Shown here: positions 17,972 through 33,240 of the stretch, piece by piece | Layout: each line of letters opens with the position of its first letter | Position numbering within the stretch: the first letter of the stretch is position 1 | Origin: Changpingibacter yushuensis | Lineage (GTDB): Bacteria > Actinomycetota > Actinomycetes > Actinomycetales > Actinomycetaceae | Assembly: GCF_014041995.1 (NCBI RefSeq) | Contig: NZ_CP059492.1 | Span: forward strand, 1-64,000 | Direction of reading: 5' to 3' | Length of the DNA: 64,000 nucleotides | Notes under the pieces: generated by a model | Seen by the model: only the letters and a program-made list of their open reading frames with translations | Told to the model about the DNA's origin: nothing | Database searches by the model: none | Program-made: the position numbers and the translations under genes

Positions 17972-18020
17972 GTGTGATGAAGATATGTGGCTACGTGCTG
18001 CATGAGGGAGATGAGTGAAA

Positions 18021-18506
18021 ATGACAATGAACATTCCGGAATCGATCTCTACGGCTGCGCCCACATTGACCATCCGATCGGCAGGAATGGATCAAGAATC
18101 TGCCGGTGAGGATCGCCAGAGTGCTGGTGTTGCGGGAGATTCCCACGATTCTGTGGCCGATTCGGCTCAACCACATGACCTTTCCAGCCAGACGGCAGGC
18201 GAAGAATGCGAATCGTGCGCCACCCACCACCATGGCTACATCAAAGAGAAGGATGCCTTTCTCAAGCGCATGCGTCGCATTGAGGGGCAAGCCCGCGGCA
18301 TCACCAAGATGATTGAGGATGAAAAATACTGCATCGACATCCTCACGCAGATCAGCGCCATGACCAAGGCTCTCGAAGCGGTGGGTTTGGGGCTGCTGGA
18401 TGACCACCTCAAGCACTGTGTGCTGGATGCCGCCAAGGCTGGTGGTGATGAAGCGGACGCCAAGATGAAGGAAGCGAGCGACGCCATCAAGCGGATGGTT
18501 CGCTGA
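18021..18506 (+). CDS. csoR: CsoR-family copper-sensing repressor
   Basis: CsoR represses the copper operon until it binds Cu(I). The C-terminal ~95 residues form the DUF156 helix bundle: GYIKEKDAFLKRMRRIEGQARGI, then the ligands Cys in KYCIDILTQ and His/Cys in HLKHCVLDA (C-HxxxC type). The protein is 161 residues, longer than the usual 90-120, because of a 60-residue acidic/Ser-rich N-terminal extension ending in CESCATHHHGY. ATG 18021 follows GAGGGAG; GTG 18015 is too close to it. About 100 bp after copA, with a hairpin between. Confidence 0.92.
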   Translation: MTMNIPESISTAAPTLTIRSAGMDQESAGEDRQSAGVAGDSHDSVADSAQPHDLSSQTAGEECESCATHHHGYIKEKDAFLKRMRRIEGQARGITKMIEDEKYCIDILTQISAMTKALEAVGLGLLDDHLKHCVLDAAKAGGDEADAKMKEASDAIKRMVR

Positions 18507-18644
18507 TCCACAGGGCTATTGGGAAGCAAATTGTACTCGTGTACGATGGGCCGCGCGCCCTGTTGTGGATGTAACTGACTGCAGCTGTGTAGCAGGAGCA
18601 TTCGGGTGCCCCACGTTGTATTTCGAGGAGCGCTGAGGAATCGC

Positions 18645-20396
18645 ATGCTGTGGAAAATAATCCGATCGTATAGCCGGCCTCATCTGGGGCGGATCTGGGC
18701 AGTGATTGTCCTCCAGTTGATCGCTACGATCGCTACCCTTTATCTGCCAAGCCTCAATGCTCGAATTATCGACGAAGGCATCGCCCAAGGTGACACGAAC
18801 CTCATCTGGCGCATTGGTGGCGTGATGCTGGGGGTGGCATTCGTTCAAGTAATCACCGCTATAGCTGCAGTGTGGTTTGCTGCGAAGGCCGCGATGGGGT
18901 TGGGGCGTGACCTGCGCGCAGCGGTCTATCGCCGGGTAAATTCCTTCTCAGTCCAAGATATCGGAGCTTTCGGCGCCCCCACCCTCATCACGCGCGGCAC
19001 AAACGACGTGCAACAGGTTCAGATGGTCCTGCTCATGGCGCTTACCTTCATGGTGATGGTTCCCATCATGTCAATCGGCGGAATAATCATGGCTGTGCGC
19101 GAGGATGCTGGCCTTTCGTGGCTGGTGTGGGTTTCTGTTCCCGTATTGCTTGTGATTGTTGGCCTTTTGGTTCGTCAACTGGTTCCCCTGTTCCAAATCA
19201 TGCAGAGCAACATTGACGACATCAACGCCGTGATGCGGGAGCAGATCATGGGTGTGCGCGTGGTGCGCGCATTCGTACGTGAACCGTATGAGAGGGAGCG
19301 TTTCAACGATGCAAACGCTGTGCTCACAGAAACCTCAGTGAGAATCGGCCGCCTGTTCGTCATCATGGGACCAGCGATAACGATGATCTTGCATCTGGCC
19401 ACCTCCGCAGTGTTGTGGTTTGGAGGTCACAGAGTGGACGCCAATGTTGTGGAGATCGGTGCTCTGACGGCCTTCATGCAGTACCTCCTCCAGATTCTGG
19501 TGGCGGTCATGATGGGGACCTTCATGTTCATGATGTTTCCGCGTGCCGTGGTGTGTGCCCGGCGGATCACTGAGGTTTTGGATGTGGAGCCCTCCATGGC
19601 CGAACCCCAAAACCCAGTACACATTGCTCATCCTCACGGCAAGCTGGAGTTCCGCGATGTCACCTTCGCATACCCTGGTGCGGAGCAGCCGGTACTTGAC
19701 GGCATTTCCTTCACGGTTCCCGCAGGATCCACCACAGCGATTATCGGTTCCACAGGTTCAGGCAAGTCCAGTTTGCTCAATCTGATTCCACGGCTCTACG
19801 ACGCGACGTCGGGGCACGTGCTTATCGACGGCGTACCCGTGACCAAGCTTTCGCGCCAGACCCTCACGAAGCTCGTGGGATTCGTTCCGCAGAAGCCATA
19901 CCTGTTTTCGGGTACCGTGGCCGCAAACCTCAGGTTCGGTTCCCCAGACGCAGACGAACGCAGTATGTGGGAGGCACTTGAGACCGCCCAAGCTGCGGAG
20001 TTCGTGCGTGAACGCGGGGCAGGAAGTGCTACCGGTGAAGGCTTGCATTCAACCATTTCCCAAGGTGGTACCAACGTCTCGGGAGGGCAACGCCAGCGCC
20101 TGAGCATAGCCAGAGCACTCATTGGGCGCCCACCCATCTACCTATTCGATGATTCTTTCTCCGCGTTGGACTTGACCACCGATTCCAAACTACGCGCCGC
20201 ATTGCCCCACTTCACGGGTGGAGCAACAGTGGTGATCGTTGCCCAGCGCATTTCCACGATTACCAATGCCGATCAGATCCTCGTTTTGGAGGAAGGCAAG
20301 ATTGTCGCTCGCGGCACGCATACCGAACTCCTCACAAGTTCACCCACGTATCAAGAGATCGTTGCTTCACAACTCAGTGCGCAGGAGGCGGCATGA
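18645..20396 (+). CDS. ABC exporter half-transporter, subunit A
   Basis: A 583-residue type IV ABC exporter half (six-segment membrane domain about 15-310, NBD about 335-580). Walker A GSTGSGKSS and signature NVSGGQRQR are intact, but Walker B reads LFDDSFSALD: Asp replaces the catalytic Glu. That is typical of the degenerate-site subunit of heterodimeric exporters (TM287/288, LmrCD type). ATG 18645 with GAGGAA just upstream is preferred to GTG 18606. It overlaps the partner gene by 4 bp. Substrate unknown; lipids or drugs are usual for the group. Confidence 0.88.
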   Translation: MLWKIIRSYSRPHLGRIWAVIVLQLIATIATLYLPSLNARIIDEGIAQGDTNLIWRIGGVMLGVAFVQVITAIAAVWFAAKAAMGLGRDLRAAVYRRVNSFSVQDIGAFGAPTLITRGTNDVQQVQMVLLMALTFMVMVPIMSIGGIIMAVREDAGLSWLVWVSVPVLLVIVGLLVRQLVPLFQIMQSNIDDINAVMREQIMGVRVVRAFVREPYERERFNDANAVLTETSVRIGRLFVIMGPAITMILHLATSAVLWFGGHRVDANVVEIGALTAFMQYLLQILVAVMMGTFMFMMFPRAVVCARRITEVLDVEPSMAEPQNPVHIAHPHGKLEFRDVTFAYPGAEQPVLDGISFTVPAGSTTAIIGSTGSGKSSLLNLIPRLYDATSGHVLIDGVPVTKLSRQTLTKLVGFVPQKPYLFSGTVAANLRFGSPDADERSMWEALETAQAAEFVRERGAGSATGEGLHSTISQGGTNVSGGQRQRLSIARALIGRPPIYLFDDSFSALDLTTDSKLRAALPHFTGGATVVIVAQRISTITNADQILVLEEGKIVARGTHTELLTSSPTYQEIVASQLSAQEAA

Positions 20397-22414
20397 GGTC
20401 CCGAAAAGGCACGAACCACCGCCACAAGAAGGTGGAACTCGAGACGTCGTCCAACAACGCCACGTTGAGTGAAGAAGAAATCAGCGAGCTTCAAGAACAT
20501 GCCGGCGGCGGATCGTGGGGCGAGAGCGGCCCGCCGCGCAAGGCAAAGGCCTTCTGGCCCTCGGCAATCCGGCTCCTTTCGCTGTTCAACACGGAACGCC
20601 TGCCGATGACGGGTGTGCTCGCCATGATCGTGGTGGCAGTTGTATTCAACGTCTGGGCTCCAAACGTCCTCGGCGATGCCATGAACGTCATTTTTGCTGG
20701 CGCAATGGCTTCCCGCATGCCCGATACGCTGACGCGCGATCAGGTTATAGAGCAGGCGCGCCAGTCGGGGCAGACTCGGATTGCTGACATGCTTTCAGCC
20801 ATGGACTTCGTGCCTGGCCAAGGCGTGGACTTTGGCCATTTGGGTAGGCTCATCCTCATCGTGTTGGGGATGTATGTGATCGCCCAACTCCTGATGTGGT
20901 TGCAGGGCCGCCTGCTCAATGACGTGGTGATGCGCATCGTCTACAGGTTGCGCCGCGACATCGAGGAGAAGATCAACCGCCTTCCGCTCTCACATTTTGA
21001 CAACGCCCAGCGTGGTGACATCCTCTCCCGCACCACGAATGACGTGGACAACGTTCAGGCCGCCCTCCAGCAGGCCTTCACTAGCCTCATCTACTGCGTG
21101 CTGACCATCATCGGTATTACAGCAATGATGTTCTACCTCTCATGGCAACTCGCTCTGATTGCTTTGGTCGCGCTGCCGCTTTCCGCAATAGTGGTGGCGG
21201 TGGTCGGCTCACGATCTCAGACTTTGTTTGCAGCGCAGTGGCGCGATACAGGGCGTTTGAATGGGCACATTGAGGAATCGTTTACGGGCCATGAGATCGT
21301 CACGGTGTTCGGGCGGCAAGCTGCCATGGCGGAACGGTTCGATGAGCGCAATGAAGCCCTCTACGATGCGTCATTCCGGGCGCAGTTCTTCTCCGGAATG
21401 ATCATGCCCATCATGCAATGGGTGAGCTACCTCGGATACGTGGGAATCGCTGTGGTAGGTGCGTTGCGTGTGGCTTCCGGCCAGATGACGTTGGGTGCCG
21501 TCACGGCATTCATTCAGTATTCGCGGGAGTTCAACCAACCCTTGGGCGAGGTTGCTTCGATGGCGAACATGATGATCTCCGGCGTGGCTTCGGCCGAACG
21601 GATCTTCGAGCTCCTTGATTCCCCAGAGGAAGAACCTGATCCTGCTGATCCTGCCGAACTGGTTCAGCCTGTGCGCGGAACAATCGAGTTCGACGATGTC
21701 TCCTTCTCATATTCGCCTGATGAGCCTCTGATTGACGGGCTCTCTATGAGTGCCGAACCGGGCCACACGATCGCGATCGTCGGGCCCACAGGCGCAGGCA
21801 AGACAACCCTCGTCAACCTCATCATGCGCTTCTATGAGATAGACGGCGGAGCGATTCGCTTGGACGGCGTAGACATCCACCGCCTAGCTCGTGGCACCGT
21901 ACGCGGCCAAGTGGGCATGGTTCTTCAAGATGCCGTGCTTTTCAAGGGCACGATTATGGAGAACATTCGGTACGGACGTCTGGACGCGACCGACGACGAC
22001 GTCGTCGGCGCAGCAAAAGCCACGTACGTAGATCGGTTCGTACGTTCTTTGCCGCTCGGATACCAGACGGTTGTTGAAGAAAATGGTGAGAACATTTCGG
22101 CTGGTGAACGCCAGCTGATCACAATTGCGCGTGCCTTCGTGGCCGATCCCGCGCTTCTCATCCTTGATGAGGCTACTTCTTCGGTAGATACCAGAACTGA
22201 GTTGCTTGTGCAGAAGGCCATGGCGGCGCTGCGCCTCAATCGCACGTCATTCGTTATTGCGCATCGTCTCTCCACTATTCGCGATGCGCACACCATCCTC
22301 GTGATGGAGAAGGGCGCGATCGTGGAACAAGGGAATCACCGCGAACTCATCGAAGCTGAGGGTGCCTACTATCGGCTCTACATGTCACAGTTCTCCGGGG
22401 TGTCCGAGGAGTAG
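20393..22414 (+). CDS. ABC exporter half-transporter, subunit B
   Basis: The 673-residue partner of the preceding gene; start ATG 20393 overlaps its stop. A charged N-terminal tail of about 60 residues precedes six membrane segments and an NBD with Walker A GPTGAGKTT, Walker B LLILDEATSSVD (catalytic Glu present) and a divergent signature NISAGERQL in place of LSGGQ. Together the pair would have one competent composite ATP site (Walker motifs of B, signature of A). The NBD is closest to the lipid/multidrug exporter group. Confidence 0.88.
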   Translation: MRSRKGTNHRHKKVELETSSNNATLSEEEISELQEHAGGGSWGESGPPRKAKAFWPSAIRLLSLFNTERLPMTGVLAMIVVAVVFNVWAPNVLGDAMNVIFAGAMASRMPDTLTRDQVIEQARQSGQTRIADMLSAMDFVPGQGVDFGHLGRLILIVLGMYVIAQLLMWLQGRLLNDVVMRIVYRLRRDIEEKINRLPLSHFDNAQRGDILSRTTNDVDNVQAALQQAFTSLIYCVLTIIGITAMMFYLSWQLALIALVALPLSAIVVAVVGSRSQTLFAAQWRDTGRLNGHIEESFTGHEIVTVFGRQAAMAERFDERNEALYDASFRAQFFSGMIMPIMQWVSYLGYVGIAVVGALRVASGQMTLGAVTAFIQYSREFNQPLGEVASMANMMISGVASAERIFELLDSPEEEPDPADPAELVQPVRGTIEFDDVSFSYSPDEPLIDGLSMSAEPGHTIAIVGPTGAGKTTLVNLIMRFYEIDGGAIRLDGVDIHRLARGTVRGQVGMVLQDAVLFKGTIMENIRYGRLDATDDDVVGAAKATYVDRFVRSLPLGYQTVVEENGENISAGERQLITIARAFVADPALLILDEATSSVDTRTELLVQKAMAALRLNRTSFVIAHRLSTIRDAHTILVMEKGAIVEQGNHRELIEAEGAYYRLYMSQFSGVSEE

Positions 22415-22438
22415 TACTAGGGAGTGAGTGCCACCCCC

Positions 22439-22502
22439 GGCCCACCGGCATGAACTGTGCCCAGCCCACCGGCGTGAACTGTGCCCGGCCCACCGAAGTG
22501 AC
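22439..22502. repeat. 24-bp tandem repeat, about 2.6 copies
   Basis: Units at 22439-22462 and 22463-22486 differ by two bases, and a partial third runs from 22487 to about 22502. It lies just after the exporter pair. No ORF or promoter function is evident. Confidence 0.75.
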
Positions 22503-22599
22503 CTCAGCCTGACGCGGTGATGACTGGCACCACCTGCGGAAAGGGTGGTGTGGAGATCTGGGATGTGGCCACTGTCACCTACCAGCATGTGGTCACTGA

Positions 22600-22632
22600 T
22601 TGCAGGCCGCGTAATACGCGACTAATCTAGTC
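22600..22632 (+). promoter_or_regulatory. Promoter with two adjacent palindromes, leader/importer operon
   Basis: TTGCAG (22600-22605) and TAATCT (22623-22628) are 17 bp apart, a modest match to a promoter. The spacer holds a perfect palindrome, CGCGTA-A-TACGCG (22608-22620), and the -10 is inside a second, GACTA-ATC-TAGTC (22620-22632). The two abut. The arrangement suggests one or two transcription factors controlling the operon; I do not recognise the regulator. Confidence 0.55.
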
Positions 22633-22683
22633 ATTAATCCCACCAACATGGTAGGAAATGTGGAATTGTGAGAGGAGCTCAGC

Positions 22684-22779
22684 ATGGAACACGTCACCGT
22701 TGATTCCTGCCGCATCGACTCCCGAATGTCCGGTTCCATGTGTTGCCAGTGCCGAATGTGCCTGGCCACCAACTGCTGA
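22684..22779 (+). CDS. Cys-rich leader peptide (candidate cysteine attenuator ORF)
   Basis: A 31-codon ORF with six Cys codons, five of them in the last 12 codons (..MCCQCRMCLATNC, stop). AGAGGAG at 22671-22677 is a strong ribosome site 6 nt before ATG. It lies after the candidate promoter and 170 bp before the importer genes, and competing hairpins follow its stop. Cys-rich leader ORFs that make downstream sulfur genes respond to cysteine are known in mycobacteria; the same role here is inference. It is too short to be an enzyme and has no membrane segment. Confidence 0.7.
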   Translation: MEHVTVDSCRIDSRMSGSMCCQCRMCLATNC

Positions 22780-22792
22780 GCTAGCTGTCTAA

Positions 22793-22860
22793 AGCGCACC
22801 GCGTGCGCTGACACCTCACGGTTACGAACGCATCGATTTAGGCGCACCATCTTGAGCGCC
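22793..22860 (+). promoter_or_regulatory. Attenuator-like alternative hairpins after the Cys leader
   Basis: Four segments can pair in competing ways: GCGCAC (22794-22799), GTGCGC (22803-22808), GCGCAC (22842-22847) and GCGCC (22856-22860). Segments 1:2 (arms 22793-22799 and 22803-22809), 2:3 and 3:4 are mutually exclusive. The first hairpin begins 14 nt after the leader stop. There is no T-run after the last hairpin, so control would act through Rho or ribosome access rather than an intrinsic terminator. Confidence 0.5.
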
Positions 22861-22952
22861 AATCGTTAGCACCCCGCTGCCTGTTCCATGGCACAACCAT
22901 GCTCGAACGGCGGTAATCCTCCCAAAGAACTTCCCCGGAGAAGAGGGAATCT

Positions 22953-24026
22953 GTGTCCATTTTGCAGGATACAAGTGCCATTTCTGACCAAGAAATTGGT
23001 GTGGCAGATACCGAAGGTGCGCTCCAGACGGATCGCCAGCCACAAGACTCACGAGTTGGCGGAATCCGCCGTTCTGAAGCGCTGGTCAAATTCCTGGCGG
23101 CGCGGCTGTTCCAAGCAGTCCTTGTGGTGTGGTCGGCCGTGACCCTCACATTCATTGCTGTACATGCGGCGCCAGGCAACATTGTGGACAACCTCTTGAC
23201 CGACGCCGAACGTTCCAACGTGGAACTTCGAGCCCGAGTTATTCAAGAGTGGGGCCTGGACCGTCCGGTGTTCATCCAATACCTCGGATACTTGGGCAAA
23301 CTCGTACGCGGTGACCTTGGAACCTCCTACGTGCAGCACAAGAGCGTGAATGCCATCTTTGCTGAGCAGTTCCCATACACAATCCAACTGACGATCACTG
23401 CCATGATCATCGCGACGGCAGTGGCGCTTCTGGGATCCCTCCTCATCTCCAACACCACACACCCACTCATTCGTGGCCTCTATGAAGGAACAGAACTCAC
23501 GCTTCTTTCCACACCTCCGTTCTGGTTCGGAATCCTGTTGCTGGCAGTCTTTTCTTTCCAGCTCGGTTGGTTCCCTGTGGCAGGGGCGTCTGGCTTGGCG
23601 GCTTTGGTGTTGCCCGCGCTGGCTATCGGGATACCTGAAGGTGGCAATCTCTCCCAGATTTTGCGGCAAGGGATCGGCAGAGGATTGGATCAACCGTTCG
23701 TCACGACCGCGCGTAGCCGGGGGCTCTCCGGTGGTCAGATTAAGCGGCGCCACCTTCTACGCCATGCCAGCATTCCGGCAGTGACGGTGGGAACCATGAT
23801 GATCGGCAATCTGTTGGGTGGTGCCGTGATTACCGAGCAAGTGTTTGGGCGCCCGGGCCTGGGGCAGATCGCAGTCAATGCCATTACCTCTAAGGACCTC
23901 CCGGTGATTCTTGCCGTGGCCTTCGTCAGTTCGCTCGTTTTCGTCATCGCTTCGACTGTTGTTGATCTGCTCTACTTCGCGATCGACCCGCGCATTCGCG
24001 GAGCACTTGGAAGGAAAGCCTCGTGA
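22953..24026 (+). CDS. Peptide-type ABC importer permease (DppB-like)
   Basis: The first permease of a dipeptide/oligopeptide/nickel-class importer. The 357-residue protein has an unusual 45-residue hydrophilic N-terminus, then six membrane segments; ARLFQAVLVVWSAVTLTFIAVHAAPGN is the typical first segment and RSRGLSGGQIKRRHLLRHA the cytoplasmic EAA loop (about 250). GTG 22953 follows AGAGGGA. It overlaps the next permease by 4 bp. In this operon I infer import of a cysteine- or peptide-linked organosulfur compound. Confidence 0.88.
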   Translation: MSILQDTSAISDQEIGVADTEGALQTDRQPQDSRVGGIRRSEALVKFLAARLFQAVLVVWSAVTLTFIAVHAAPGNIVDNLLTDAERSNVELRARVIQEWGLDRPVFIQYLGYLGKLVRGDLGTSYVQHKSVNAIFAEQFPYTIQLTITAMIIATAVALLGSLLISNTTHPLIRGLYEGTELTLLSTPPFWFGILLLAVFSFQLGWFPVAGASGLAALVLPALAIGIPEGGNLSQILRQGIGRGLDQPFVTTARSRGLSGGQIKRRHLLRHASIPAVTVGTMMIGNLLGGAVITEQVFGRPGLGQIAVNAITSKDLPVILAVAFVSSLVFVIASTVVDLLYFAIDPRIRGALGRKAS

Positions 24027-24892
24027 GCATCTTGCATAAGGAACGCACGGTCGACGTCGTCGTTGCCAAACCAACGTGGGCCGTTTCGCGTAACAAGACT
24101 GTGGTGGCAGCTGGAGCATACTTGCTGGTCATAGGGTTCTTCGTTGCCTTCCCGCACATAGTGACCAGCCACGATCCTCTTGAGACGGATCTCCTGGCAG
24201 TAAACCTCTCGCCGTCTGCTGAGCACTGGGCGGGTACCGATTACCTCGGGCGCGATCTGTTTGCCAGAATCGTCTACGGTGCCCGCTACTCCATTGGAAT
24301 TGGCCTCGCGGTAACACTCATTGCACTGGTATTCGGAACCATCTTGGGTGTGCTGGCCGGCACCACGCGGTCTCGGGCGGTAGACACCGTGGCGATGCGC
24401 TGCATCGATGTTCTCTCATCGTTCCCCTCCGTACTTCTCGCGCTGGTCATTGTGGGTCTGACGGGTGCCGGAATTCCCAATCTCATTGTGGCGCTGGGAA
24501 TCGGCGGAATTCCCTCGTTTGCTCGCATGATCCGCGCAGAAACAAAAGGCGTAGTGCTCTCCGAGTACGTCGAACAGGCCTCCACCTTTGGCCTGAGTCG
24601 CTGGCAAATCCTCATGCGGCACGTTCTGCCGAACTCTCTCGGAGTGATCCCGTACATGATCACCATCAGCTTGGGTGGGGCAATCATGGGCGTTTCAGGC
24701 TTGAGTTTCCTTGGAATTGGCCCGCAACCACCTACACCGGAATGGGGAACGATTCTCGCTGAATCGCGTAACTACTTGCGGATCGCCTGGTGGTCCGGAA
24801 TCCTCCCGGGCATCGTCTTGGTGCTCACCGTCATTTCATTCACCGTTGTGGGACGCGCCTGGCAGTCCAAGTTCGAAGGGAGAGGGCAATGA
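24023..24892 (+). CDS. Peptide-type ABC importer permease (DppC-like)
   Basis: Second permease of the importer, 289 residues, with the N-terminal segment characteristic of DppC/OppC, the TDYLGRDLFARIVYGARYS motif (about 72-90), the EAA loop EQASTFGLSRWQILMRHVLPN (split: about 178-198) and a final GRAWQ-type end. GTG 24023 overlaps the upstream stop, and its own stop overlaps the ATPase start, so translation is coupled throughout. Confidence 0.9.
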   Translation: MSILHKERTVDVVVAKPTWAVSRNKTVVAAGAYLLVIGFFVAFPHIVTSHDPLETDLLAVNLSPSAEHWAGTDYLGRDLFARIVYGARYSIGIGLAVTLIALVFGTILGVLAGTTRSRAVDTVAMRCIDVLSSFPSVLLALVIVGLTGAGIPNLIVALGIGGIPSFARMIRAETKGVVLSEYVEQASTFGLSRWQILMRHVLPNSLGVIPYMITISLGGAIMGVSGLSFLGIGPQPPTPEWGTILAESRNYLRIAWWSGILPGIVLVLTVISFTVVGRAWQSKFEGRGQ

Positions 24893-26676
24893 GCATTATC
24901 CAAAGCCCAGCCAAGAGGAAGCCCATCGTGGACGCATCCGAGCTTGGTGGTGTGCGCGGCGAGGCCCATTACAGCCCCGCAGCCCAACTTGCACCGAGCC
25001 GAGCCGCGGACCAGACCATTCTGGACATCAAGGACCTGCGCATCGGGTTCGCCTCCGGTCCAGCGGGATCTGATCTTCGTGTTAAGGACGTGGTCAAGGG
25101 AATCTCCTTCTCACTACGTGCTGGCGAAACGCTCGGTATTGTCGGCGAATCCGGTTCAGGCAAATCCGTGACCGTGCGCAGTTTGCTCGGACTCACGGCT
25201 TCGAACCAACGCCAATCGACCGGTGGATTTTCACTATTTGGCGACGACGTCGCCGATTATTCCGAGAAGCAGTGGGCGAAGATTCGTGGAACTCGCATTG
25301 GATTTGTCTTGCAGGACGCTCTTTCCTCGCTAGATCCACTCAAGACGATTGGGCAAGAAGTGGCTGAGGCACTGCGCCCAACAGGCCGCCCTGGCAGCCT
25401 CGCGAAGTCTCCTGAGGTGCATGCATTGCTCCAGGCCGCCGGAATCCCAGATCCTCAGGTGCGGGCACGCCAGTATTCTCACGAGTTGTCTGGGGGGCTT
25501 CGCCAGCGCGCACTCATCGCCAGCGCAGTGGCCCAGAACCCTGATCTCATCATTGCTGATGAACCCACAACTGCTCTGGATGTGACGGTTCAAGCCCAGG
25601 TACTCGATCTTCTGCGTTCGAAGGTGGCCGAAGGCCATGGCCTCATCCTTGTTTCGCACGATCTGGCCGTGGTGGCTTCTGTCTGCGATCGCATTCTCGT
25701 GATGAAGGATGGCGTGATCGTGGAGGAAGGCCGCAGTGATCAGATTCTTTCCGATCCTCAAGAGGAGTACACGAAGCTTCTTTTGGCTGCAGTGCCATCG
25801 GCCGCATCGCGCGGATACCGGCTCGCAACTGTGGAACGCGTACCACTTGCCGCCAGATCGAACGAGTTGGGTCACGATCAGCCGGTCATTCTTGAGGCAA
25901 CGGGCATCAGCAAGACGTTTGTTGGCCGCCACGGCGGTGTAGTGAAGGCGGTTGACGACACTTCCATCGCGCTCAAGAAGGGCCAAACCCTTGGGATCGT
26001 CGGGGAGTCCGGTTCTGGCAAGAGCACCCTTGCCCGCATAGTTGCCGGAATCATCGAACCTGATTCGGGCACGGTGAATCTCCAAGGCGAGCTATGGTCT
26101 CCCCTACCTGATCGCGTTCGCCGCAGCAGGCGCCACGAGATCCAGGTTGTTGCGCAGAATCCCCTCGCAACGTTCGAATCCCGCTACACCGTGGAACGCA
26201 TCATCGCTGAGCCGATTCGCCAACTCACAAAGGCTTCGCGGGAAGATGCGGCAAAGAGGGTCGCCGAAGCGCTGGATCTAGTGCAGCTCGCCTCCCAAAC
26301 CAAGGAACTCATGCCATGGAAACTCTCCGGCGGGCAGCGTCAGAGAGTCGCGATCGCCAGAGCGCTGGCCACCGATCCCAGCATCTTGGTTGCTGACGAA
26401 GCTGTTTCGGCGCTTGACGTATCCATCCAAGCTCAGATCCTTGATCTTCTTGCAGATATCCAAGCGGAAAAGGATGTGGCGATCCTCTTTATCTCCCACG
26501 ATCTTGGGGTGATCCACCACATCTCGGATTCGGTCATCGTTATGCGGCACGGCCAGATTCTCGAGACAGGCTCTCCCGAACACGTTCTGGTTCACCCGCA
26601 ACACGAATACACCCGCGAACTTATTCATTCACTGCCAGCACTTCCCGTGCCTACACACACAAAGGAAAACTCATGA
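24889..26676 (+). CDS. Fused double ABC ATPase of peptide importer (DppD-DppF)
   Basis: A 595-residue protein with two NBDs, which in many systems are separate DppD and DppF. NBD1 has [10 protein letters not shown] (about 85-94) and [11 protein letters not shown]2 has [10 protein letters not shown] (about 370-380) and LSGGQRQR, with Walker [13 protein letters not shown] and [12 protein letters not shown]. Each NBD has the OppD/F-type C-terminal extension. ATG 24889 overlaps the DppC stop and follows GGGAGAGGG; a reading from 24790 is an overlap artefact. It energises the two permeases. Confidence 0.92.
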
Positions 26677-28337
26677 GATCCATCCGGAAACGCTACGCTG
26701 CAGCTTTCGCTGCCGTGGCACTACTGCTCACTGGTTGCAGCGCACAGGCAGACACCTCATCGTCTGATTCCAGCGCTGAGTCTAGCTCTGAACCCATTTC
26801 GGGCCAGACGATTACATGGGCAATCGAAACTTCACCGACCACGCTCAATCCTCAGAAGAATAGCCAAGACGGCTTCGTGTTTATCGCGCGCAACTATGCC
26901 GATTCTTACCTGTACCTGGATGAAAACGGTGATTATCAGCCGTGGCTGGCTGAGGGCTATACGCTCAGCGACGACCAGCTGACCGTTACTCTCAATCTCC
27001 GTCAGGGAGTCACGTTCAGCGACGGCGAAGCCTTTAATGCAGATGCCGTTATCGCAAACTTTGATTACCTCACGTCGGATGAGAATTCCTCCACTCCACG
27101 ATGGACGGGCATCCTCGAAAGCTATGAGAAGACAGATGACTACACGGTGGTATTCCACCTGAACGCCATTTCGCCACTCTTCCTCGAATCGCTCTCCGCA
27201 GTCACCACTGCGCCGGTTTCTCCGAAATCGCTTGAAAAGACTGACAGCCTGGAAACAGGCGGTCCAGATCTTGCTTTCGTGGGCGCATACACAGTGTCCA
27301 GCTACACCGAAGGCAGCGAGTTGGTTCTGGAAAAGAACGACAACTACGACTGGTCCGATTGGGGCCCAAGCGCGTTGGTCGAGGCGAACCCGGGTGCTCC
27401 CTATGCCCAGACTCAAGTCTTCCGCATACTTCCTGAGGCTTCGACCCGCACCGGCGCTCTCACCTCAAGCCAAGTTGACGTCGTTTACGGCGTTCCCTCG
27501 CAGGATATTTCTTTGTTTGACGACGACGACACGTACACCTACGGCCAAGTCCTCAACTCAGGCACGGTCTATTCGCTCTATTTCAACACGACCAAGGCTC
27601 CGTTCGAGGATATTCACGTTCGCCAGGCCCTCCAACAAGGTGTGGATTACGCCGCCGTCGTCGACTCTGTGTACTACGGGACCGGTACCCAAGCCACCCA
27701 ATGGTTCTCTCCATCGAGCATCTTCTACGACGACGACTTCACGTCCAACGTGGCCTTCGATGCTGACGCAGCGAATGCACTACTCGACAAAGCTGGCTGG
27801 ACTTCGCGGGATTCGGACGGCTACCGCACCAACGCTGCCGGTGATCGTCTGACGATCGCACTCAACGCAGATGCTCCCTACATTCGTGATTCGCGCGATG
27901 TCCTGTTCCAGGCAATTGCCGCGGAACTCCAAGAGAATCTGGGTGTTGAGCTCGACTTCCAGGCACTTGACCCCGGCACGGTCACAACCTTGTGGGAGGA
28001 TAACAAGAACGACGCATTCGATAACTCGATGGGTTCCTCGGATATCTCGAGCTCCTTGGACCTCCTGCTGACCCCATGGAACCCACAGCGCATCTTCATC
28101 AACGAGGATGCCAAGGCTGCTGACCTCGTCAAGCAGGCGAAGGAAGCTCCCACCAAGGAAGAACGCAAGGCGCTCTACGACCAGGTGCAGGACTACGTGG
28201 TCAACGAACAGGCCTACATCCTCCCCTTGTACGTTCCGCGTGACAACTGGGCGGCCTCCGCCGCCATTCAGGGGATCAACGTCAGCGAGATCTCCGGCCA
28301 CATCTTCTCAACAGTCGCAGTTTGGAGAGCTGAGTAA
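26673..28337 (+). CDS. Peptide-type substrate-binding lipoprotein (SBP family 5)
   Basis: The periplasm-side binding protein of the importer, 554 residues. The signal peptide ends LLLTGCSAQ, with lipobox Cys at residue 22, so it is membrane-anchored outside. A Ser-rich linker (about 27-42) precedes the SBP_bac_5 fold (ETSPTTLNPQKNSQDGFVF, LNLRQGVTFSDGEAFNADAVI). The NPQKNSQDGF region resembles a sub-group whose members sit with dipeptide importers and flavin monooxygenases in other actinobacteria and enterobacteria. It overlaps the ATPase stop by 4 bp. Ligand not deducible. Confidence 0.9.
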   Translation: MRSIRKRYAAAFAAVALLLTGCSAQADTSSSDSSAESSSEPISGQTITWAIETSPTTLNPQKNSQDGFVFIARNYADSYLYLDENGDYQPWLAEGYTLSDDQLTVTLNLRQGVTFSDGEAFNADAVIANFDYLTSDENSSTPRWTGILESYEKTDDYTVVFHLNAISPLFLESLSAVTTAPVSPKSLEKTDSLETGGPDLAFVGAYTVSSYTEGSELVLEKNDNYDWSDWGPSALVEANPGAPYAQTQVFRILPEASTRTGALTSSQVDVVYGVPSQDISLFDDDDTYTYGQVLNSGTVYSLYFNTTKAPFEDIHVRQALQQGVDYAAVVDSVYYGTGTQATQWFSPSSIFYDDDFTSNVAFDADAANALLDKAGWTSRDSDGYRTNAAGDRLTIALNADAPYIRDSRDVLFQAIAAELQENLGVELDFQALDPGTVTTLWEDNKNDAFDNSMGSSDISSSLDLLLTPWNPQRIFINEDAKAADLVKQAKEAPTKEERKALYDQVQDYVVNEQAYILPLYVPRDNWAASAAIQGINVSEISGHIFSTVAVWRAE

Positions 28338-28339
28338 TC

Positions 28340-29635
28340 ATGACCGAAACCGTCGATCAGGCCCGAGTCATTGCGGCTACCCGCGTTATCACAGGAAAAC
28401 CGGGTGAGGTTATCGAGGACGGCGCAGTTGCGATCCGAGGAACCAGTATCGCTTGGGTGGGCCAGCGTGGTGAGCTGCCAGAAGAGTTTCAGGCAGTGCC
28501 ACTGGCTGAGTACCCGGGAGGCACGATTCTTCCGGGACTTGTGGAGACCCACGCGCACTTGGGTTCACGCCCAGGTTCGGGGCCCCGGGTACCGGATGTC
28601 GCCCGGCACGACCAAAGCTGGAATGCGCTCCATTCTGTCCATGTGTTGCGCCAACTCGGTTCTATCGGAATTACCTCTGCGCAGTCTCTGGGCTCCCGGT
28701 TCTATACCGACGTCGCCGTGCGGGAGGCAGTTGCTCAGGGCCTGATCGACGGTCCACGAATCGTGGCCGCAGGGCCAATGATCACCACTACAGCTGGCCA
28801 TGACTGGAAAGATGGCGCGGAGGTTGATTCAATCGACGACATCCGGCACGCTGTGCGCGAGCATCACAAGGCGGGTGCCGACGTGATCAAAGCTGCCGTA
28901 ACCGGTGGGTTCTTCACACCAGGTACTGCGCAGTGGAAGGCCCAGTTCTCAGTTGGTGAGATCAAGGTCTTGGTTGAGGAAGCTCATCGGCTTGGAAAAC
29001 ATGTGGCTGTGCATGCGCACGGTACCCAAGGTATTGAGCGAGCGGTTGAGGCCGGTGTGGACTACATTGCTCACGCCACCTTCATTTCCGACGACGGCAC
29101 TACCCGGTTTGAGCCGGAGTTGGCCGATCGCATTGCCCGCGCAGGCATATACGTGGATGTGGCGGCGCCGCCGTCCTATCCACTGGTGCCGGGCGAGACC
29201 ATCGCTCCTCGCGCCTACGAACTCTATTCGCACGGCGTGCGCATAGTGACGGGACATGATATCGGCGCGGTCATTCCGGCCCACGCCTACCTTTTCGGAT
29301 TGCAGCAGTTGGAGGAGGCGGGTATTCCTCGGGACGAAATCCTCCTTGCAGCCACCTCCCGTGCGGCCGCTGCCATCGGACTGGCGGGTATCACTGGGGT
29401 AATCGCTCCGGAGTACGCTGCAGATCTGCTGGTAGTGACGGGGAATCCGCTCGAGGACCTCCACGCTCTCGATCATCGCGAACTGATTCTCATGCGCGGA
29501 AAGCAGTTTGTTCCTGAACCACTTCCGGAGTTCGTGGGCCGCGAGGGGATTGCGGATGGAAAACCAGGCAGCACAGAAGGCGAGCTCGCTCGCAGGGCTC
29601 GCCAGCTGCACTTCAAGGAGCTGCAGCAATGGTAG
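28340..29635 (+). CDS. Metal-dependent amidohydrolase (imidazolonepropionase/prolidase-like)
   Basis: A 431-residue amidohydrolase-superfamily enzyme. HxH is VETHAHLGS (about 70-78); the metal-bridging Lys is likely in GADVIKAAVTGG (about 183-194); then HVAVHAHGTQG, YIAHATF and TGHDIG supply the remaining metal His/Asp. It most resembles Xaa-Pro-type or carboxylic-amide hydrolases of the imidazolonepropionase branch. Start ATG 28340 is 2 bp after the SBP gene; its end overlaps the M20 gene by 7 bp. Substrate probably an imported amide; this is inference. Confidence 0.85.
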   Translation: MTETVDQARVIAATRVITGKPGEVIEDGAVAIRGTSIAWVGQRGELPEEFQAVPLAEYPGGTILPGLVETHAHLGSRPGSGPRVPDVARHDQSWNALHSVHVLRQLGSIGITSAQSLGSRFYTDVAVREAVAQGLIDGPRIVAAGPMITTTAGHDWKDGAEVDSIDDIRHAVREHHKAGADVIKAAVTGGFFTPGTAQWKAQFSVGEIKVLVEEAHRLGKHVAVHAHGTQGIERAVEAGVDYIAHATFISDDGTTRFEPELADRIARAGIYVDVAAPPSYPLVPGETIAPRAYELYSHGVRIVTGHDIGAVIPAHAYLFGLQQLEEAGIPRDEILLAATSRAAAAIGLAGITGVIAPEYAADLLVVTGNPLEDLHALDHRELILMRGKQFVPEPLPEFVGREGIADGKPGSTEGELARRARQLHFKELQQW

Positions 29636-30756
29636 TTTTCGACCCCATCCAAGCACGCCATCACCTCCACCGCACGCCTGAGCTTTCCAACCGGGAGTAT
29701 CAGACGTCCGCATATGTGGAACGTGCGTTGCGCAGTATGGGCGTGACCATTGTTGACGCGGGCTTAGAGACGGGCGTGATCGGCGAGATCACGGGCGGAT
29801 CTGGACCTACCGTTGCACTGCGAGCAGATCTCGATGGCCTGCCAGTGACTGAAGATGCGAGCCATGCATTGCGTTCGCAGACTCAGGGGGTGATGCACGC
29901 TTGCGGGCACGATCTGCATATCGCTAGCCTGCTGGGCGCAGCAGCGCAGCTGAGCGAACGCGCCAGCGAGCTTCCCGGTTCTGTGAGGCTCGTGTTCCAG
30001 CCGGCAGAGGAGACAGGCCACGGATCCGACGTGATCCTTTCCTCTGGAGTTCTGGACGACGTCGCAGCCGTCATCGGCTTCCACAACAACCCCAACTACG
30101 CGCCAGGGAGTGTTGCTGTGGGTGAAGCGATGATGGCCGGATGCGTGCGGTTCGAGGTCAACCTGCGCGCCCAAGGCACCCATGGCGGATACCCAGAAAA
30201 AGGGACTGGCCCGATTGAAGCCCTGGCCACCATCGTTTCTGCATTGCAGACGATCGTGAGCCGGAACGTCTCTGCCTTCGATTCGGCCGTGCTGAGTGTA
30301 ACGGAGGTTCACGGAGGGGACGTCTGGAACGTTATCCCTGCCTCGGCAGGTTTCTCCGGAACGGTTCGCACCTTCTCGCAGGCCACAGAAGACAGGGTGG
30401 AGAACCGCTTCCGAGCATTGGTGGAATCACTGGCAGCCGGATTTGGTCTTGGCGTCGATATCACATGGGAGCGCCTCGCGCGCCCGCTGATCAACAACCC
30501 GGAACTCCTCCACGTGTTGCTGCCTCAGGTAGCAACCGTTGCTCATGTGGCTGATCTACAGCCGTCCATGGCTGGTGAGGACTTCGCCGACTACCGGGCG
30601 AAAGCTCCCTTGTTCTTCGCCTTTGTTGGCTCCAATGGCCAACCTGGAGCAGCCGATTGGCACAGCCCGCAGTATGTGGGACTTGATGCCACCATTCCAA
30701 CAGCAATCAGTTTCTATACACACAGCGCCGTAGCGGCGTTGCGCAATTTCGCATAA
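29629..30756 (+). CDS. M20D-type metallopeptidase / N-acyl-amino-acid deacylase
   Basis: A 375-residue M20 amidohydrolase of the group that removes N-acyl groups from amino acids and S-conjugates (YxeP, hippurate hydrolase relatives). Metal and catalytic residues: HACGHDLHIA (about 89-98), FQPAEETGHGSD with the catalytic Glu pair (about 124-135), GFHNNPN (about 148) and a late His in GEDFADYRAKAP region. It overlaps the amidohydrolase gene. With the downstream GNAT it could form an acetylate/deacetylate pair. Confidence 0.87.
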   Translation: MVVFDPIQARHHLHRTPELSNREYQTSAYVERALRSMGVTIVDAGLETGVIGEITGGSGPTVALRADLDGLPVTEDASHALRSQTQGVMHACGHDLHIASLLGAAAQLSERASELPGSVRLVFQPAEETGHGSDVILSSGVLDDVAAVIGFHNNPNYAPGSVAVGEAMMAGCVRFEVNLRAQGTHGGYPEKGTGPIEALATIVSALQTIVSRNVSAFDSAVLSVTEVHGGDVWNVIPASAGFSGTVRTFSQATEDRVENRFRALVESLAAGFGLGVDITWERLARPLINNPELLHVLLPQVATVAHVADLQPSMAGEDFADYRAKAPLFFAFVGSNGQPGAADWHSPQYVGLDATIPTAISFYTHSAVAALRNFA

Positions 30757-30773: not shown

Positions 30774-31901
30774 ATGACTATCAGCAAGACTGCACAAGCG
30801 GGACTCCTGAATGTAGCCTCGAGCGAGGCGTGCCTAGTTCCCGAGCCTTCCGAGCGTCCTTTCGAGGAAACGAGCGTAGAACAGACTCCTGATGGTGCCT
30901 TCCGCCGCCAACGCAACGCATACACGAAGCGGTTTGGCTCTGAAGAGGGCCAGGCTCCGGTGATCCCGGGGCGCTACCGCGTTCTTGGCTCAATCGGTTG
31001 TGGCTGGAATCGCCGTCAGCGCATTGTGATTCGTTTGCTCGGACTTGGCGGCGTCTTCGTTCCTGAAGTGGTATATGGCCGAGATTCTGAAGGCTGGAAG
31101 CTCACGGTAGAGCCAGGTTCGATCGGTGAGAAGTTTGGATACGACCGCCTCAATGACTTCTACCGGGCAACCTCTGGAGACTTTTCCGGGCGTGGGACGT
31201 CACCAACCGTCGTCGACTTTGAGACCGGCAAGGTGGTAACCAACAACTACCATCTGCTATCTATCGATCTGGAAACGGCGTGGAAGCCATTCCATAAGGA
31301 AGGTGCTCCGGACCTGTACCCTGAGGAGCTGCGTGCGGAGATCGATCTCCTCAATCAGCAGTTGTTCGACGACGTCAACAATGGAACGTACAAGGTCATC
31401 TTCGCTACGAGTGAAGGCGCCGCGAAAGCTGCTTACACAGTGTTCGCAGCGCGCCTAGCTGATTACAATTTCCGTTTGGCCTCACGCCGTTACCTCTTTG
31501 GACCATCGATAACGGACTCCGACGTGCGTCTGTTCCAGACTCTCGAATCGTATGAAAACGGGTATCGCCCTGGCATCGCCGCAAAGCTTGGCGACGATGT
31601 GCTGCACATCTGGGACTTCCCGAACCTGTGGGCCTACGCGAGGGACCTGTTCCAGACTCCAGGGTTTATCGACGGCCCCGAACTCTACGAGCTTGGTTAC
31701 GTTCCCGGAGAGGATGGCGAATACTCCCATGGATTCTCACGCCGAGAAGAAAACCCGTTCGGGCAGCCGGACTTCTCCGGGCGTGAAGCTCTGTACCAGA
31801 AGTGGCTCGAACCAGCAGGCCGCGAGAATCTAACTGGATCTCCGCTGTACTCCGGCCCTGGTGGCGGCGGCTCTTTTGAACTGTGGGATTTCGGCGAGTG
31901 A
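30774..31901 (+). CDS. Xi-class GST-like protein (glutathionyl-hydroquinone reductase family)
   Basis: A 375-residue relative of YqjG/Ecm4 glutathionyl-hydroquinone reductases: thioredoxin-fold N-half, all-helical C-half with DSDVRLFQTLESYENGYR and WDFPNLWAYARDLFQTPGF. The family motif CPWAHR is CGWNRR here (Cys about 79 retained), and the NES(S)EI segment that binds the glutathione gamma-Glu reads NNYHLL. Actinobacteria usually use mycothiol, so a thiol-dependent reductase or C-S cleaving enzyme with a different cofactor is plausible. ATG 30774 follows an AAGAAG; the next gene starts 2 bp after the stop. Confidence 0.8.
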   Translation: MTISKTAQAGLLNVASSEACLVPEPSERPFEETSVEQTPDGAFRRQRNAYTKRFGSEEGQAPVIPGRYRVLGSIGCGWNRRQRIVIRLLGLGGVFVPEVVYGRDSEGWKLTVEPGSIGEKFGYDRLNDFYRATSGDFSGRGTSPTVVDFETGKVVTNNYHLLSIDLETAWKPFHKEGAPDLYPEELRAEIDLLNQQLFDDVNNGTYKVIFATSEGAAKAAYTVFAARLADYNFRLASRRYLFGPSITDSDVRLFQTLESYENGYRPGIAAKLGDDVLHIWDFPNLWAYARDLFQTPGFIDGPELYELGYVPGEDGEYSHGFSRREENPFGQPDFSGREALYQKWLEPAGRENLTGSPLYSGPGGGGSFELWDFGE

Positions 31902-31902
31902 T

Positions 31903-33240
31903 ATGGGCCGTGGCGTGAACGCGAAGATACAGATCAAGGGGCAAGATTTTGAGCTCCGCGAGGCGGGTACTGATGAGTACACCGCCGTGGGAGAGATGTT
32001 AGTTGACGCGTTCACCCACGGCTGCTGGATTACTCCTGCCTATCGGAAGCGACTGACAAGCATTTCCGAGTGGGCGGCAACCTCTCACGTGTGGGTCGTT
32101 ACCCGTGACGATGAGCTTCAGGCGGCCGTGCTCACCCCCAAGCCAGAATTGCACAAAGATGAGAGCTTCACCTTCAACGTGCTTGGAGTAGCGCAAAGCG
32201 GCAGAGGGTTTGGGCTCGGAAACGTACTGGTGGAGCACTGCATTGCACTGGCAGATGAGCACGGTTATCGGACCATCGAACTTCATTCGAGCCCGCACAT
32301 GACCCACGCTCACAACCTGTATTACAAGCACGGCTTCCACCGGCGTATCGATTGGGAGACGATGGTCATCGATTCGGGCCAACGGCTTCTGACCTTCACT
32401 CGCAACGAATCATGGAGAGGATCAACCGCAATGGCACGTGCCAAGCTCGCGGAGCATCAACCAGCTGGCGCAGTTAACCCTGCGGTGGCCACAGAACCTG
32501 CTACGAAGGAGCCGCGCATCTTCCTGCCCTCCTCTCAACCCGGTTCGAGTTCACATGATCCAGCTCGCTTGAGGGCACAAGTTAGTGCAGGAACAGAGGT
32601 CACTCTGGACGCGAGTGCGCTCGATCCTCGTGCGTGGGCGAGTGTTGCAGCTGTGCGGCTGCGACATCTGCCCATCGAGGTGCGCCATGCGCCGGCAACA
32701 GAGAATCTTCCAGACGTGGCGCTCGCGGTGGATGGCACTGTTCTCAGCACGAACTGGCGGGAGATTTCGGCCGCTCTGTGGGGCGGTGAAGTTGAAAGCC
32801 ATCTTGTCAACACGATTGATTCGGATCTCATCGAGGCTCTGTTCGGGGTAATCGATACGAGTGTGGATGCGGCCCGACGGGACGCACTGCGTCGCGTTTT
32901 CTACGCACGGTTGGGCCTGTTCGACCAGGAGCTGAGCGCACAGAAGTACCTAGGTGGCGAGGAGCTGAATGAGGCTGATTCCCACCTGTTTGGTGTGCTT
33001 CTCACCTTCGATATTGGATACCGTTCGGCATTTCCGTTCGCGGATGCTGCCGTCGTCGACTACCCAAACCTCTGGCGATTCGCGCGCGACGTCTTCAACA
33101 ACTCGGCAATCGTGACGCAAGCTGAAGCTGTGGAAATCGGATTATTGCCTAAGCCCGACGGTGATTATGCGGATCCGTGGGGCCCGCCAGCTTTCACGGA
33201 GACCGTGGATGATCTTCGCACGGCGTGGTTGCAGGAATGA
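31903..33240 (+). CDS. GNAT acetyltransferase fused to a Cys-less Xi-GST-like domain
   Basis: A 445-residue fusion. Residues about 10-165 are a GNAT N-acetyltransferase with the acetyl-CoA loop SGRGFGLGNVLVEHC (about 100-114) and YYKHGF. About 225-445 is a shortened version of the preceding Xi-GST fold: DGTVLSTNWREISAALW aligns with its TNNYHLLSIDL region and NEADSHLFGVLLTFDIGYRSAF plus DYPNLWRFARDVF with its helical half. The catalytic Cys position is missing (LDPRAWASVAAV). I expect N-acetylation of an amino compound, with the GST part binding a conjugate. ATG 31903 is 1 bp after the upstream stop. Confidence 0.78.
   Translation: MGRGVNAKIQIKGQDFELREAGTDEYTAVGEMLVDAFTHGCWITPAYRKRLTSISEWAATSHVWVVTRDDELQAAVLTPKPELHKDESFTFNVLGVAQSGRGFGLGNVLVEHCIALADEHGYRTIELHSSPHMTHAHNLYYKHGFHRRIDWETMVIDSGQRLLTFTRNESWRGSTAMARAKLAEHQPAGAVNPAVATEPATKEPRIFLPSSQPGSSSHDPARLRAQVSAGTEVTLDASALDPRAWASVAAVRLRHLPIEVRHAPATENLPDVALAVDGTVLSTNWREISAALWGGEVESHLVNTIDSDLIEALFGVIDTSVDAARRDALRRVFYARLGLFDQELSAQKYLGGEELNEADSHLFGVLLTFDIGYRSAFPFADAAVVDYPNLWRFARDVFNNSAIVTQAEAVEIGLLPKPDGDYADPWGPPAFTETVDDLRTAWLQE

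Follow-up and report, generated by a model that had tools for sequence, protein, structure and literature searches.

Upstream of a dppB-C-DF/SBP/amidohydrolase/M20/ECM4-like/GNAT operon, and separated from it by 173 nt, lies a short ORF of 31 codons that begins with the ATG at 22684 and ends with a TGA stop at 22777-22779 (Table 1). Six of its codons are Cys, five of them among the final 12, and four are Met when the start is counted; the strong ribosome site, ORF, stop and Cys clustering described by the first-pass annotation are all present in the sequence. In the window (the whole 64 kb stretch of DNA analysed), this is the only ORF on either strand that combines a Shine-Dalgarno sequence with at least five Cys in its final 12 codons, and the mean number expected by chance is 0.017 (60 dinucleotide shuffles of the window). 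The 31-aa peptide has no match in NCBIfam, and Rfam at gathering score finds three tRNAs only in the window, none of them at the leader.

Table 1. Positions of the leader, its surroundings and the operon genes in the window
Feature	Position	Strand	Basis or remark
Imperfect inverted repeat CCCACCAACATGGTAGG, 5' of leader	22639..22655	+	Aligns with CCTACTAACAGAGTAGG at the equivalent place in the genus relative G003 (L043 3029-3045)
Shine-Dalgarno of leader ORF, GAGAGGAG	22670..22677	+	Sequence
Leader ORF, MEHVTVDSCRIDSRMSGSMCCQCRMCLATNC then stop	22684..22779	+	Sequence; counterparts in other genera
First CGA-ATG (Arg-Met) codon pair of leader	22723..22728	+	Sequence
CGA-ATG-TGC (Arg-Met-Cys) core of leader	22753..22761	+	CGAATGTGY in 6 distinct loci
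Untranslated spacer, leader to dppB, 173 nt	22780..22952	+	Without + strand T-run terminator-like site
Predicted closed RNA domain	22780..22870	+	Outer stem 22780-22785/22865-22870, hairpin 1:2 22793-22809, hairpin 3:4 22834-22865
Candidate Shine-Dalgarno region of dppB	22938..22949	+	Sequence
dppB-type ABC permease, first operon gene	22953..24026	+	Pfam PF00528, PF19300
dppC-type ABC permease	24023..24892	+	PF00528
Fused DppD-DppF-type ATPase	24889..26676	+	Two PF00005 stretches, PF08352; start inferred, open frame from 24790
Family 5 solute-binding lipoprotein	26673..28337	+	PF00496; nearest NCBIfam TIGR04028, below cut-off
Amidohydrolase	28340..29635	+	PF01979
M20 amidohydrolase/deacylase	29629..30756	+	TIGR01891 above cut-off
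ECM4-like enzyme (Xi-class GST, glutathionyl-hydroquinone-reductase-like)	30774..31901	+	Profile matches 4pts, 3m1g, 3r3e, 4uss
GNAT acetyltransferase fused to GST-C-like domain	31861..33240	+	PF00583, PF00043

The 5' neighbour of the leader is an ABC exporter pair (18606-22414), upstream of which is a CsoR-type metal-sensitive repressor (18015-18506); a 24-nt tandem repeat of 2.5 copies (22436-22495) lies between the exporter pair and the leader. The inverted repeat CCCACCAACATGGTAGG/CCTACTAACAGAGTAGG may be an operator or a feature of the 5' end, and a second control of the operon is conceivable.

At the family level the importer is of the peptide type, as first annotated, while the rest of the operon points instead to scavenging of cysteine or organosulfur compounds. 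The permeases score best in NCBIfam against nickel and peptide transporter models, below cut-off, and a profile search with the ECM4-like enzyme hits Xi-class GSTs and glutathionyl-hydroquinone reductases of solved structure (4pts at E 1.8e-64, also 3r3e and 4uss). PF01507 (PAPS/APS reductase) was found in none of five genomes, the window's included (control 14/14), and PF00291 (cysteine synthase superfamily) is present in all five, suggesting that the window genome depends on reduced or organic sulfur. Among 12 loci scanned for leaders before PF00291 genes, there are two weak candidates, both short ORFs that are preceded by a Shine-Dalgarno sequence and lie just upstream of the gene: L138 1225-1317 (ending ...SPHCRCL), in the window's own genome, where the gene is cysteine synthase-like, and L149 1227-1322 (ending ...LACRCAALR), in G003. 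No such ORF was found at the cysteine synthase-like gene of G003 (L142).

The operon is probably an importer that scavenges organic sulfur. Its products would carry out import, N-acetylation/deacetylation and a thiol-dependent C-S cleavage by the ECM4-like enzyme. ECM4 enzymes strip thiols from S-conjugated hydroquinones, which makes an analogy with the Bacillus yxe pathway reasonable. In that pathway a GNAT N-acetylates S-(2-succino)cysteine, YxeK or a lyase breaks the C-S bond, and deacetylation of the N-acetylcysteine yields cysteine; the yxe cluster also encodes an ABC transporter (PMC9706529). Importer, GNAT and M20 deacylase are likewise encoded in the window operon, and its ECM4-like enzyme stands where C-S cleavage would be expected, suggesting for this enzyme a role in the salvage of cysteine conjugates along a route similar to yxe.

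Recurrence of the leader in other genera and families

Loci were gathered through homologues of dppB or of the ECM4-like protein, without reference to the leader, and 13 of the clusters obtained carry both Dpp-type and ECM4-like genes. Under a fixed criterion chosen after the window was seen (an ORF preceded by a Shine-Dalgarno sequence, with at least three Cys in its last 12 codons, at most 600 nt upstream), a leader is present at seven of the 13, a number that includes the window and two near-identical Actinomyces loci, versus 5 of 863 background tiles (p about 4e-13). Reading by eye gives a leader at 11 of the 13, window counted; the additions are G066 and B. psychraerophilum, and also G199 and L057, both without a clear Shine-Dalgarno sequence. 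No leader was found at the other two clusters (L040 and L050). The Cys-codon leader that the first-pass annotation placed ahead of an importer operon is therefore found again, in further genera and families, ahead of orthologous operons, and the conservation of Cys codons that it had proposed as a check is confirmed to that extent.

When Cys content alone is considered and no Shine-Dalgarno sequence is demanded, 8 of the 28 sites ahead of Dpp or ECM4-like genes have a leader, which is thus far from universal. None was found by Cys content at the Bifidobacterium ECM4-like genes lacking Dpp neighbours (L037-L039, L041, L042). Eleven dpp loci have no ECM4-like gene on the available piece; one of them has a leader (G403), and L102 and L103 have doubtful ORFs. 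Clusters with an ECM4-like gene and no complete Dpp set on the available piece contributed four further leaders (L044, L047, L052, L053). Across the class, one of 394 sampled genomes has the ECM4-like gene at E 1e-90, namely that of the window itself.

Two of these clusters share a conserved Cys/Arg-rich leader, MKR[RK]YCCRGIRRYVA[SA]CSC[VM]RMR[GS]PLA (L044 17692-17775, L047 17672-17755; Bifidobacterium thermophilum and B. apri), whose downstream neighbours are a different ECM4-like gene and then one resembling methionine synthase, the gene names being judged from sequence. At least two ECM4-like genes per locus are found at L041, L044, L046, L047, L054, L059-L062 and L067, in Bifidobacterium, Propionibacterium, several Firmicutes and a Treponema MAG, some of them near M20 or ABC genes.

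Closest to home are the leaders of the genus relative G003 (MERFNQVVFAGDHTMTCRFMCPMARMLCSASC) and of Ancrocorticia populi, another member of the Actinomycetaceae (MRKSMLTAQLSINCASACCCRMCCR), where it precedes the ECM4-like gene, first in the cluster there. The Actinomyces leaders contain ...MACCCRCMP (two near-identical loci) or ...MACCRCCMPKG..., and that of G199 reads MNEFRMCPC. Further leaders come from Bifidobacterium psychraerophilum (MSLSARIFRKPFKAFAESLLNIRMCVQRF), Propionicimonas (MSRPTPFVLVTPVATVGARMCPGSCCLH), a Propionibacteriaceae MAG (MSTALTFDGLAHLRCLARRCCR, without a clear Shine-Dalgarno sequence) and Propionibacterium cyclohexanicum (...TRCQLDCCSPSTAR). The leader of G403, on a short contig from another family, lies ahead of dppB and has Cys-Cys and two CGA-ATG pairs (VISLSTARLASNSCISLLRMRMAWLGSALPCCRPAASSLS). 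The two near-identical Actinomyces loci differ at one leader column out of 149, synonymously, and at seven spacer positions, of which one is a gap.

These peptides bear on the possibility that the ORF senses metal, its Cys-rich nascent chain binding copper, zinc or nickel and controlling an importer of metal or metallophore. The window peptide has CXXC spacings (C-C-Q-C, C-R-M-C), the permease and solute-binding protein match nickel transporter models below cut-off, and CruR of Bordetella (PMC9426467) offers a precedent. The CXXC arrangement, however, is not kept (F-R-M-C-P-C, I-R-M-C-V, A-R-M-C-P), and the partner M20, amidohydrolase, GNAT and ECM4-like proteins resemble enzymes acting on amides and thiol conjugates; we regard metal sensing as quite improbable. 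That translation of the leader is a prediction leaves some room for a chance or non-regulatory ORF, but the shuffle expectation given above and the recurrence before orthologous operons render this explanation very unlikely.

Predicted RNA structure between leader and dppB

The first-pass annotation had read the region after the leader as an attenuator of four segments, GCGCAC, GTGCGC, GCGCAC and GCGCC, whose pairings 1:2, 2:3 and 3:4 would exclude one another. The segments are in place and complementary as written; the mutual exclusion did not survive folding. We folded 22684-22975 in four states, one without a ribosome and three with masks at 22726-22757, 22744-22775 and 22762-22794 (ribosome at the stop). 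Without a ribosome or with either of the first two masks, 1:2 and 3:4 form together at 0.96-1.0 and 2:3 is at 0.00. With the ribosome at the stop, whose mask extends just into the start of segment 1, pairing 1:2 disappears, and 2:3 is still at 0.00 because 3:4 stays. The suggestion that a stalled ribosome would favour 2:3 thus finds no support, this pairing having a probability of about 0 in all four ribosome states modelled. Moreover, some 20 nt separate segment 1 from the edge of a ribosome positioned on the main Cys cluster (22741-22761), and only a ribosome on the last Cys codon (22774) would come near the segment.

The earlier observation that there is no T-run holds, no terminator-like site of this kind occurring on the + strand in 22400-23000. 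Conservation of the pairings, the other check proposed, gave the opposite outcome to that of the Cys codons: neither the segments nor any spacer structure is kept in the loci compared. The predicted closed RNA domain was not seen in the relatives folded, and no shared helix is visible in a three-way alignment of the window, G003 and A. populi. For the first 116 nt past the stop the predicted fold has no significant excess of structure over shuffles (z -1.48), 20 of the 200 shuffles being as stable; eight spacers (first 93-150 nt) are likewise not clearly more stable than their shuffles, their z values spanning -2.18 to +0.87. In 15 leaders, G403 being left out, the Arg-Met-Cys region is no more complementary to the spacer than in shuffles (mean z -0.39), L052 alone reaching p 0.03.

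A classical trp-type attenuator is accordingly rejected for this leader: its antiterminator 2:3 is unpopulated in the four states modelled, no U-run terminator was found on the + strand of 22400-23000, and masks at two positions of the main Cys cluster leave 1:2 at 0.96-1.0. The complementarity of the segments speaks for a four-segment attenuator, but their coexisting hairpins, the missing U-run site on the + strand, the distance of the main Cys cluster from segment 1 and the lack of conservation of the segments in the two relatives aligned make it very improbable.

Codon content of the leaders and the CGA-ATG pair

Leader length and peptide diverge across loci, and an enrichment in Cys, Met and Arg persists. 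The final 20 codons of 14 leaders (G094, a near-duplicate of G104, and G403 omitted) comprise 44 Cys, 39 Arg and 21 Met of 261. Cys was a selection criterion for most of the 14, and Met only indirectly, for two recognised via CGAATGTG. Met accounts for 8% of these leader ends versus 1.2% in shifted frames (p 2e-11) and an assumed 2% (p 1e-7).

Arg-Met is present in ten of 16 leaders, always as CGA-ATG and in twelve pairs; the six without it are from Actinomyces and three Propionibacteriaceae. The pair is followed by TGY in six leaders (wobble base C in three, T in three), by TTG-TGC in G003 and by CGT in two Bifidobacterium leaders, and G403 has CGA-ATG-CGA-ATG-GCG. The share of CGA among Arg codons in long ORFs of the same loci is 3-16%. 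Among short ORFs of the larger loci that contain CGN-ATG-TGY, the Arg codon is CGA in the six operon leaders and CGG, CGT or CGC in five others, duplicates counted once. A wider scan, admitting AGA/AGG and any next codon, separates leaders from other ORFs less cleanly, with Arg-Met also in three Cys-free short ORFs that are not leaders (CGA twice, CGT once). At dpp genes without ECM4, the Arg of Arg-Met is CGG in a Cys-free ORF of L098 and CGA in the doubtful ORFs of L102 and L103. Multiplying the local CGA frequencies gives 7e-10 over nine loci and 2.7e-6 over five unrelated loci found by Cys content alone, and G403, also found by Cys content, would multiply either by 0.09; these products are rough, the loci being related, and the CGA count is biased in that L036 and L080 were recognised through the CGAATGTG string.

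The tRNAs of the window's genome number 50 matches, 49 of them given an anticodon, with ACG, CCG, CCT and TCT for Arg and GCA only for Cys. No TCG tRNA-Arg was found among the 49, so that decoding of CGA would fall to the ACG tRNA alone, presumably with inosine and by inosine-adenine wobble, as is stated of the inosine for most bacteria (PMC3711424). CGA-AUG, extended to CGA-AUG-UGY in six loci, might then be a codon-level pause module within the Cys/Met cluster, a proposal that we put forward as doubtful. The invariant CGA, assumed to be slow in these bacteria, would detain the ribosome at the Cys/Met codons, making it more responsive to the supply of charged tRNA-Cys and tRNA-Met. Such a leader would be a general sensor of sulfur amino acids, for which one Cys codon would be enough and no hairpin switch would be needed. 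If the pair matters, attenuation would be tuned by a chosen slow codon and not by an RNA switch, and the pair would serve as a sequence signature for finding such leaders.

The same motif could matter as peptide, the residues around Arg-Met(-Cys) stalling the ribosome and sensing cysteine or another small molecule, not the supply of tRNA-Cys. Arg-Met recurs in ten leaders amid a diverging peptide, even where there is one Cys (B. psychraerophilum), and the nascent-peptide arrest and Rho termination of Bordetella CruR (PMC9426467) provide a precedent. However, the Arg is encoded by CGA in all ten, though arrest needs the residue and not the codon; the number and spacing of Cys vary, and the pair is missing from six of the 16 leaders. 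Arrest by the peptide is, on balance, unlikely.

As a general leader signature, TGYCGAATGTGY matches in 123 of 213 family genomes, and its matches exceed the reversed-pattern control. The idea that it marks leaders elsewhere was set aside, since scanning 30 listed matches and reading four neighbourhoods gave no such evidence in that part. Two Actinomyces-genus genomes have, around position 1500 of L122 and L123, Cys-rich short ORFs with CGA-ATG-TGY (...NCCGWCRMCVVMFITVM and ...ACRMCCCAGW); no sulfur-linked gene is in view, and these ORFs may be chance occurrences or stray leaders.

Proposed control of the operon and known cysteine leaders

We consider it probable that the ORF is a translated regulatory leader, serving an operon whose products take up organic sulfur compounds and free cysteine from them; translation of the ORF, its response to cysteine and the step downstream are what we infer. 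With charged tRNA-Cys (perhaps also tRNA-Met) scarce, the ribosome would pause in the Cys/Met cluster around CGA-AUG; with charged tRNA plentiful it would reach the stop, leaving the 173 nt spacer untranslated. Pausing under sulfur starvation would thereby relieve an attenuation of the Rho type or at the level of translation. The leader of B. psychraerophilum keeps a single Cys codon, which is few for a sensor that counts on Cys codons.

Switching of hairpins 1-4 is very unlikely to be the mechanism, and with neither a supported hairpin switch nor a T-run site, what is left is Rho-dependent termination or a translational effect, followed by peptide arrest. Rho-dependent termination in the spacer is a plausible, if tentative, choice, and translational control of dppB is tentatively held to be equally plausible. 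The spacer measures 93-286 nt in 12 loci (G403 left out), and C exceeds G in 10 of the 12, a count made with no control that points weakly to Rho. With a ribosome mask over the Cys codons, the main start is predicted to become more accessible in 9 of 12 loci, by 0.01-0.13, with hand-chosen start codons and no shuffle control; access is unchanged in the window (dppB 0.33 to 0.33) and in B. psychraerophilum and falls in L057. The modelled rise is weakly suggestive of translational control.

The nearest known relatives of this leader are the polycysteine short-ORF attenuators of mycobacteria, which have been shown to work (Canestrari et al. 2020, as cited in PMC9094748, PMC9031893 and PMC13236596). 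There, as here, Cys codons are clustered in a short ORF ahead of cysteine or sulfur genes in actinobacteria, and cysteine availability is read via ribosome speed, as we propose for the window leader. The mycobacterial ORFs are leaderless according to the title of the report, whereas the window leader has a good Shine-Dalgarno sequence, which speaks against a leaderless start, and it differs further in its Met and Arg enrichment, in the CGA-AUG found in ten leaders and in the Dpp/ECM4/GNAT/M20 cluster downstream. Leader peptides have also been predicted for cys operons of Mycobacterium and Propionibacterium acnes and for cbs of Bifidobacterium longum (Seliverstov et al. 2005, PMC1262725). These resemble ours in having Cys codons near the stop and no conserved terminator, with Rho suggested, but they precede cys operons and cbs, not a Dpp/ECM4 importer cluster; an Arg-Met core goes unmentioned in the Cysteine section of PMC1262725, although the alignment there may have one.

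Beyond the actinobacteria, uORFC-8-2 before cysS in Rhodobacterales is likewise a short uORF with Cys codons and acts as a ribosome-mediated attenuator; it has prominent stems and a U-run fitting an intrinsic terminator, neither of which was found at the window leader (PMC8632094). The Bordetella CruR, a copper-responsive upstream ORF that also bears Cys, works through translation arrest and Rho termination; it is a DUF2946 protein with CXXC and RAPP motifs (PMC9426467).

A literature search, whose coverage leaves out most subscription journals, found no paper on this operon or on the Arg-Met-Cys core. The window leader shares with actinobacterial Cys leaders the clustering of Cys codons near the stop and a position kept in relatives before an inferred sulfur operon. 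Actinobacterial Cys leaders as such are already known; what is new is the operon, the CGA-AUG signature and the co-enrichment in Met. Control by cysteine leaders would thus reach beyond the genes of cys biosynthesis, to a probable organic-sulfur salvage operon.
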